Of a stretch of DNA of 64,000 nucleotides, positions 51,136-53,290 are shown one piece after another (positions within the stretch are counted from its first letter, which is position 1; each line of letters opens with the position of its first letter). This DNA comes from Bacteriovorax sp. BSW11_IV. GTDB lineage: Bacteria > Bdellovibrionota > Bacteriovoracia > Bacteriovoracales > Bacteriovoracaceae. Below the pieces are notes generated by a model. The model had not been told where the DNA came from. It searched no databases and worked only from the letters and a program-made list of their open reading frames with translations. Position numbers and translations under genes: made by a program. The stretch is from positions 1 to 64,000 of the forward strand of contig NZ_AUNE01000009.1 of the NCBI RefSeq assembly GCF_000447755.1, given 5' to 3'.

Positions 51136-52203
51136 CTAAGGTGAATATTTTTTTAAGTTTTTCTTGAAAAAGTTCACCTTTTCTTGAATGACTTCTGGAT
51201 ATTTCCCAAAATATGGTGATTGAGGATATCCAATCCCATCAATATAAAGAGCGGTGTCTCCACACGCTGATTTATTATTCATTACAATTCTTTGATATAA
51301 ATCTTGTCCCTCGAAGTTTGCATACTTGGAAAATAGAAATTGTAGCAATTGTCGGTGAGATGCTGGTTTAAAACCCCATGCTAAACAGTTGCTCGAGCTT
51401 GTGAACATAAGCATAATTCCAATATTTGTGAATTGAAGAGTTTTTTCAAGTTGATGTTCAGAGACATCCTTCAAGACCACATTAGAAAATGAGTCATTAC
51501 GTGTATATAAAAAGCGATTTACAAGCTCAAGCGTAACTTGGGCCTTGGATGTATCATCATTTGGCATTTTCAACCATCCACCTTTCATATTACTCAATGA
51601 ACTACTTGAATCATGAAGATGATAAAACATCTCTAAAAGAAGTTCAGTGAATAAAGGATGAAAATCAGAAATGGCCCCAAGCCCATATGTCATAGTAAAG
51701 CTGGTAGACTTAAAGAATGAATTCATTTGCGTAATCAAAGAAGTAATTTTCTTCTTAGTATTTCTTGGAAGTGATCGAGAATAAAAATCTTTGATAAAAT
51801 TATTAGACTTAGAAGTCTGAACAATTTCATGAGCCATTTTGTTAAACTCTAAAATGATATCCCAGTCTGCTGCTGCTAAAATTTCCTCGTCTGAAAGTGT
51901 GATATCTTGAACAGAGGAGTTTAGAATTTTACTGTGCCACTGTGTTTTATTTTTTGCAATATGAACTGTTGATTCAATATTGAGGTCAATTGCTGAAGCA
52001 GGAACATCAAAGTTCTCTGATAGAGATTCTTTAACTGAATTAGGAAACATTCTATGGCAGTAATTGTCCTCAAAAAATGTTTTTCTCATATATCCTGAAA
52101 ATTCAGAATGAGTTGAACAATAGGCCTTCATTTCTGTACTAAGGCCAAGTGAGGCCTTAGTAGAAAATCCTAGAATGGTGACAAGTAAAATCATTTTAAA
52201 CAT
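51136..52203 (-). CDS. Exported protein of unknown function
   Basis: Not recognised. A 355-aa protein with a signal peptide (about residues 1-17, MILLVTILGFSTKAS). Six cysteines are spread over the mature part. Mostly helical by appearance; no catalytic motif seen. It is convergent with the TIGR02147 gene, with only 2 bases between the stops. The start could be ATG 52203 or ATG 52194 three codons on. Confidence 0.65.
   Translation of the reverse strand: MFKMILLVTILGFSTKASLGLSTEMKAYCSTHSEFSGYMRKTFFEDNYCHRMFPNSVKESLSENFDVPASAIDLNIESTVHIAKNKTQWHSKILNSSVQDITLSDEEILAAADWDIILEFNKMAHEIVQTSKSNNFIKDFYSRSLPRNTKKKITSLITQMNSFFKSTSFTMTYGLGAISDFHPLFTELLLEMFYHLHDSSSSLSNMKGGWLKMPNDDTSKAQVTLELVNRFLYTRNDSFSNVVLKDVSEHQLEKTLQFTNIGIMLMFTSSSNCLAWGFKPASHRQLLQFLFSKYANFEGQDLYQRIVMNNKSACGDTALYIDGIGYPQSPYFGKYPEVIQEKVNFFKKNLKKYSP
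51138..51180. terminator. Nested inverted repeats between convergent genes
   Basis: AAGGTGAA pairs with TTCACCTT (8 bp), and inside it TTTTTC pairs with GAAAAA. A T7 run lies between. It sits in the 3' end of the minus-strand gene just after the plus-strand stop and may act as a two-way terminator. Confidence 0.5.
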
Positions 52204-52404
52204 ATATTATCCCTCGCAAGACATGTGCCACTCTACTTTGAAAAAAGAAGGCCCGTTTCAACAAGTCATTACAAAAATGAACCGATTTATAGTCTGAAAT
52301 CAATAGGATAGGTCTTCTACATCTGAAATGGTGATGTCTAAATATTTAACATCTGTAAAAATGAAGATATTCAATAGCCAACTTTGTGAGTATCATCGCG
52401 CCAT

Positions 52405-52866
52405 AAAGCCAGAGGTGCCGTAAAAAGCTCAAAAGGGAATTCCGTGTGAATCGGAAGCTGTCCCGCAGCGGTATGTGGAACGAAACCCGCAAGACACTGA
52501 TCATTGAGATTGGGAAGTTGGGGAGTAGGTGGAAAAAATGAGTAAAGCTTTAAAAGTTTTGAAGTGTGAGACGGCCGAGCCGCCCACGAATTGCAGGCGC
52601 TATCGCTACTGCAATGGTGACGGTAAAGCTGTTGTCATAAAGTTTTGAAGTGTGAGACGGCCGAGCCGCCCACGTATTGCAGGCGCTATCGCTACTGCAA
52701 TGGTGACGGTAAAGCTGTTGTCATAAAGTTTTGAAGTGTGAGACGGCCGAGCCGCCCACGTATTGCAGGCGCTATCGCTACTGCAATTCGTGACGGTAAA
52801 GCGGCCGTCAAAATGCTTTGCATTTTGTCCGCGCCGCAAGCCCGAAGACCTGCCTCTGGTAGAATA
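52405..52866 (+). promoter_or_regulatory. Cobalamin (B12) riboswitch with an expanded peripheral arm
   Basis: The conserved core is present: GAGGTGCC, AAAAGGGAAT, a CCG/CGG stem, GAAGCTGTCCCGCAGCGGTA, GACACTG...GGGAAGT, and finally AAGCCCGAAGACCTGCC. Stem P1 is closed by CCAGAGG (52409-52415) and CCTCTGG (52853-52859), which shows both ends belong to one RNA. Between GGGAAGT and AAGCCCG, where E. coli btuB has about 30-40 bases, there are about 320, mostly three tandem repeats. Downstream, CACCTTCGAGGT and AAAGGAG offer a translation-type expression platform before the thioesterase gene. Confidence 0.9.
52556..52813 (+). repeat. Three 86-bp tandem repeats inside the riboswitch
   Basis: Units start at 52556, 52642 and 52728 with an exact 86-base period and are nearly identical through the ATTGCAG-GCG-CTAT-CGC-TA-CTGCAAT hairpin. 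The third unit ends differently: TTCGTG replaces TGGTG, and GCGGCCGTC replaces GCTGTTGTC. 86 is not a multiple of 3 and the frames carry no ribosome binding site, so the array is not coding. It is more GC-rich than the surrounding sequence. Confidence 0.93.
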
Positions 52867-52900
52867 TTAATCAAGCACCTTCGAGGTAAAGGAGTTTCCC

Positions 52901-53290
52901 ATGTCTTTAGAGGCACAAATTGAAAAATCGAGAACGGTAATTACTAAGGCCGTTTTCCCTAACACAACAAACCATTACGATACTCTCTATGGTGGTCAGG
53001 CCTTAAATTGGATGGATGAAGTCGCTTTCATCACGGCCACAAGATTTTCTCGTCAAAAAATGGTGACAGTTTCATCAGACTCAGTAAGCTTTAAAAAACC
53101 AATTCCTGCTGGAACAATTATAGAACTTGTTGGGAAGGTTTCACATGTGGGAACGACAAGTTTGAAAATCTCTGTCGAAATGTTTGTTGAGAATATGTAT
53201 TCACACGAAAGAGATCTTGCCGTTAAAGGGGCGTTCACTTTCGTGGCCATTGATGAAAATAAAAATCCTGAAAAATTAAAAATCGATTAA
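52901..53290 (+). CDS. Hotdog-fold acyl-CoA thioesterase
   Basis: A 129-aa thioesterase of the YciA/acyl-CoA hydrolase type, releasing free CoA from acyl-CoA. The active-site helix region NHYDTLYGGQALNWMDEVA carries the typical Asn and Asp, followed by VTVSSDSVSFKKPIPAGTII. An AAAGGAG site precedes ATG. It is the first gene after the cobalamin riboswitch, which makes B12 control likely though unexpected for this enzyme. Confidence 0.88.
   Translation: MSLEAQIEKSRTVITKAVFPNTTNHYDTLYGGQALNWMDEVAFITATRFSRQKMVTVSSDSVSFKKPIPAGTIIELVGKVSHVGTTSLKISVEMFVENMYSHERDLAVKGAFTFVAIDENKNPEKLKID

Follow-up and report, generated by a model that had tools for sequence, protein, structure and literature searches.

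A 64-kb stretch of the Bacteriovorax sp. BSW11_IV genome (the window) very likely holds one class-I cobalamin (B12) riboswitch that works as a translational OFF switch and tolerates an arm made of mobile hairpins. The riboswitch occupies 52409-52859, 5' of a thioesterase gene (all window features given here lie on the + strand), and a 304-nt insert (52530..52833) separates the 5' part of its aptamer, which ends at 52529, from the B12 box (52838-52854).

The 5' part (52409..52529) runs from P1 to P8, contains L5 (52458-52468) and is recognized by the Rfam model RF00174, by a profile HMM of relatives (57.8 bits) and by a core motif that is unique. P1 is formed by CCAGAGGT (52409..52416) and GCCTCTGG (52852..52859), two strands 435 nt apart that make eight complementary pairs, the innermost a U.G, and that covary between genomes. 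The 5' strand of P7, TGTGG (52474..52478), pairs with CCGCA (52834..52838), and P7 covaries in relatives; since this helix pairs and the profile of nine relatives matches through the region, the P6 extension (P7 and beyond) is considered present. P2 looks very weak in the window copy according to the RF00174 alignment. The B12 box AAGCCCGAAGACCTGCC (52838..52854) stands at the 3' end of the aptamer, as RF00174 membership requires; it is unique in the window, conserved in the sister genome described below and coincides with the 3' match of the profile. A search for the true 3' half AAGCCCGAAGACCTGC with up to two mismatches (0.05 matches expected in 64 kb) returned a single match in 64 kb, at 52838-52853. 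The original prediction had P1 arms pairing across about 440 bases and two recognizable halves of a B12 core, and both statements hold, the halves being found in order by the relatives-only profile.

RF00174 scores the locus at 55.8 bits (gathering threshold 31.5), and its alignment ends at 52601, taking repeat 1 as a false 3' half and missing the true B12 box. For comparison, a profile HMM was trained on nine compact class-I cobalamin riboswitches of the same family, from which the window locus and its sister were omitted. In the native window this profile matches 52425-52529 with the 57.8 bits given above and 52833-52868 with 11.2 bits (E 0.004, for a target set that took in the whole 64-kb window), and excision of 52530-52833 turns this into a single match of 82.0 bits. 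The same test on the sister genome gives 68.6 and 7.9 bits apart and 91.2 bits once the insert is excised. Scoring of only one half by a covariance model had been named beforehand as a sign against a single riboswitch. This is literally what Rfam does, but because excision yields one stronger match, it reflects a limit of the model. A covariance model may thus score an expanded switch and yet mis-draw its 3' half, and other such switches may be mis-annotated.

The only other genome of the genus that was found (G001, 9 contigs) has the same switch in front of the orthologous thioesterase gene (85% amino acid identity), with a 384-nt insert in the same slot that consists of about 4.2 copies of an 89-bp unit unlike the window's in sequence. 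No DNA match was found between the two arrays outside their terminal part. The synonymous sites of the two thioesterase genes are saturated (pS 0.84); the 5' halves of the switches nevertheless share 84% identity over 100 nt, and the segment of the last hairpin and the B12 box 95% over 62 nt. Between the two genomes P1 shows compensatory changes, from A-U to C-G and from G-C to U-A. A table of eight genomes shows pairing in 94.3% of the P1 and P7 cells and 27 double changes, where shuffled alignments give 8.9 and slid ones 6 at most; its register was set by hand, which biases it in favour of pairing, and the two helices were tabulated by hand because a MAFFT alignment of whole aptamers mis-set P1 and P2. 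The CCGC end is common to the whole element family described below, so that P7 is weaker evidence than P1.

Because P1 has undergone compensatory changes despite saturated synonymous sites, the insert must be old and the riboswitch core under selection. It is improbable that the inserted element killed the riboswitch and left its halves as fading remnants: the size of the insert and the weak P2 of the window copy are what such decay might look like, but the core is conserved at saturated synonymous divergence, P1 has been repaired by compensatory changes, and the association of switch and gene is kept in both species. An assembly artefact, or the joining of two different switches, is scarcely credible. 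The window genome is a draft of 59 contigs, in which the copy number of a short tandem array may be miscounted, but the second genome shows the same arrangement in 9 contigs with a different array. The further suggestion that the halves come from two different riboswitches was ruled out by the sister genome, the covariation of P1 and P7 and the relatives-only profile, which together point to cognate halves of a single switch. The same layout in G001 and the core pairing kept across the insert also bear out the proposal that the aptamer tolerates it, in the two genomes that carry it.

The insert follows the P8 side and precedes the 3' strand of P7; the profile breaks off at 52529 and resumes at 52833. 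The class I switch of Mycobacterium tuberculosis metE has a P6 extension with a second four-way junction, P7/P8/P10/P11 (PMC11260477), and on this ground we assign the slot to the P10/P11 region. Compact relatives have about 5-17 nt in the same slot, less than the few dozen bases taken as normal in the original prediction. The three 86-bp repeats reported there are present as a tandem array of 2.9 copies (52553..52802, period 86, 98% matches) with copies starting at 52553, 52639 and 52725, the third of which diverges at its 3' end. What had been seen as tandem repeats, correctly so far as it went, are also copies of a dispersed, family-specific hairpin element, which had gone unnoticed.

Ten copies of this element align as a hairpin H1 (CCGCC...CGG) and a hairpin H2 (GCGNC...GNCGC) with TAAA between them; 92.7% of the cells are paired, and there are 32 double-change cells against 9.4 in shuffled and at most 11 in slid alignments. 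A covariance model of the element (R1), whose training rows included the copies of the window and of G001, finds three copies in the window's riboswitch. Copies 1 (52580..52681, 41.1 bits) and 2 (52666..52748, 41.2 bits) partly overlap, and the last (52752..52838), which has a complete terminal H2 and a 3' arm overlapping P7, scores 101.4 bits as a member of the R1 training set. This last copy shares 77-89% DNA identity with dispersed copies in other genera. Across a 369-genome search of the phylum, R1 identified 1-6 copies per genome in 21 of the 115 genomes of the family (9 of 48 genera), and no copy was found in the other 254 genomes. All four copies in G001 are inside the riboswitch. The window genome's only other copy is situated directly 3' of a groEL-like gene (L143:780-865, i.e. 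G000:C29:38081-38164), and a comparable position is taken by element copies in G003 (L108).

Elsewhere the element borders tRNA genes or comes immediately 3' of protein genes. At several tRNA genes (tRNA-Arg, tRNA-Ser, tRNA-Thr) the element is followed by a direct repeat of the gene edge, 13-20 nt long; loci with the gene-edge pattern include L106, L123, L124 and L140. An empty tRNA-Thr site is found in G071, where G003 carries the element and a 15-nt duplication, which directly supports, for this one site, that the element is mobile. With dispersed homologous copies and this insertion evidence, the element can be described as MITE-like. No target-site duplication was seen by eye at the riboswitch itself, and in a scan of 17 loci no Rfam family matched the elements. 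Some tRNA loci also show an inverted copy of the gene edge 5' of the element, which hints at an unusual copying mechanism.

The 462-nt region is strongly folded (z = -5.1), and this, together with the covarying hairpins, contradicts the earlier description of the insert as flexible; several alternative folds, with local or nested hairpins, are possible for it. P1 and P4 are equally probable in silico in the RNA with the insert and in the excised RNA. Shuffled inserts often leave P1 and P4 intact too, and the idea that the insert insulates the core was dropped, the real insert not being separable from random ones in this respect. The 3' arm of the terminal H2, GCCGC, overlaps the 3' strand of P7, and according to the prediction the two helices exclude each other. 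The calculated fold prefers P7 in the window RNA but H2 in that of G001, a disagreement that may come either from a limit of the energy model or from real competition.

One reading of this overlap, which we regard as unlikely though worth weighing, is that the arm has been domesticated, making the array a functional component of the switch. The terminal hairpin would supply the 3' strand of P7 and compete with it (GCCGC / CCGCA), the array would stabilize or time the fold, and its copy number would tune folding or response. In its favour are the 95% identity of the terminal hairpin and B12 box over 62 nt despite saturated synonymous sites, a compensatory flip inside the terminal hairpin between the species, the strand that P7 and H2 have in common in predicted mutually exclusive states, and the retention of the insert in both species. 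However, the internal copies have diverged past DNA alignment and differ in number, the two RNAs are predicted to fold into opposite states, and relatives manage without an array. The arm seems nearly neutral to us, and any benefit from it is hypothetical.

The slot also contains the start of a putative 36-aa uORF (52538..52648), with an ATG and an SD-like AGGTGG upstream. We give little credence, even slightly less than to a dead switch, to the view that the slot mainly serves to carry this small ORF and that the repeats are passengers. The start site with its SD-like sequence speaks for such a role, as does the M. tuberculosis metE aptamer, whose P9-P10 extension contains uMetE2 (PMC11260477). 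Against it, G001 lacks an ATG at this position and shows no similar peptide, the unit lengths of 86 and 89 nt are not divisible by three, and conservation falls on base pairs and not on codons. A conserved coding function of the insert was likewise judged unlikely, given a uORF that lacks a counterpart in G001.

The regulated gene (52901..53290) encodes an acyl-CoA thioesterase of the hotdog fold (4HBT, YciA-like; Pfam PF03061, 60.2 bits), for which the NCBIfam YciA model scores below its cut-off; three distant named relatives were found, including Fluviispira and Spirobacillus. The B12-riboswitch core motif precedes 20 of the 23 thioesterase orthologues in the family (L078-L100), one more being degenerate, and these switches are mostly short. 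Acyl-CoA thioesterase may accordingly be a conserved B12-riboswitch target in this bacterial family, judging from the co-occurrence of motif and gene. A literature search for such a target, or for a repeat-expanded cobalamin riboswitch, returned nothing relevant. At L091 and L096 an SD and a tiny ORF lie between a short B12 riboswitch and the thioesterase gene, and the switch there may act on a leader peptide.

With target genes named by eye from their translations, the compact class-I switches of the family are mostly found 5' of TonB-receptor (btuB-like) genes, and short B12 switches also 5' of nrdB-like genes; L069, L070 and L073 are examples of the latter, the genes resembling nrdB of class I ribonucleotide reductase (beta subunit). 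The genus of the window is unusual in having the long type of switch at the thioesterase. In the window genome the TonB-receptor (btuB-like) gene has a short B12 riboswitch (L044:780-890, G000:C29 near 49280), so that here the thioesterase has the class-I switch and the receptor the short one, whereas several relatives have it the other way round.

Upstream of the thioesterase gene we noted a candidate SD-sequestering hairpin, CTTC-GAGGTAAA-GGAG (52879..52894, the P13/L13 candidate), recognized in the sequence itself and by comparison with G001 and the compact relatives; it is weakly predicted, with a folding probability of 0.05. L5 has CCC and the loop of this candidate has GG, a possible L5-L13 kissing loop of low folding probability. 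No terminator-like site was found on the coding strand near the thioesterase, and no sigma-70-like promoter site in 52150-53000. As there is no coding-strand terminator and the SD may lie in a hairpin whose GG loop could meet L5, OFF control of thioesterase translation is most likely. It may be speculated that the thioesterase is off when B12 is plentiful since methylmalonyl-CoA and other acyl-CoAs are then removed by B12-dependent mutases.

Under the preferred reading of one working switch with a tolerated arm, a dispersed mobile two-hairpin element would have entered the P10/P11 region of a class-I, adenosylcobalamin-type riboswitch in front of the acyl-CoA thioesterase gene before the two species split. 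It would then have multiplied in tandem, to about three copies in the window and about four in the sister, and the array would have been homogenized within each species. The insert presumably folds on itself and exits the P6 extension at a single point, which would leave P1, the P3-P6 junction and the B12 box free to form the ligand pocket and the switch able to bind B12. With B12 bound, L5 would pair with the loop of the SD hairpin and thioesterase translation would be shut off. Being 5' of the B12 box, the insert would delay completion of the aptamer and leave the interval from aptamer completion to the ribosome-binding site unchanged. Because this delay would fall before aptamer completion only, the effect of the insert on the switch is probably small.

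The locus is a natural experiment in the amount of sequence that a peripheral junction of an aptamer can take up, and it links mobile structured repeats to the remodelling of a regulatory RNA, much like the expansion segments of rRNA. With class I of RF00174 the window switch has in common the core, L5, the B12 box, P1, P7 and the variable P10/P11 position; it differs in a slot of about 304 nt (384 in G001) filled with tandem mobile hairpins, compared with about 5-17 nt in compact relatives, and in preceding a thioesterase instead of a btuB-like gene. The short class-II-like B12 switches of other thioesterases in the family have the same target, core motif and close downstream ribosome-binding site, but lack both the P7-P9 extension and the insert. 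Among repeats, REP/MITE-like sequences are likewise small, non-coding, hairpin-forming, dispersed and sometimes tandem, whereas the present element has two fixed hairpins joined by TAAA, a low copy number, a restriction to one family and a preference for gene edges. The M. tuberculosis metE switch is also class I with extra sequence (a uORF, in the P9-P10 extension) 5' of its B12 box; B12 sensing there survives mutation of the uORF start codon, and deletion of the uORF segment abolished it. Neither tandem repeats nor a mobile element are described for that switch (PMC11260477), in contrast to the arm of the window riboswitch.
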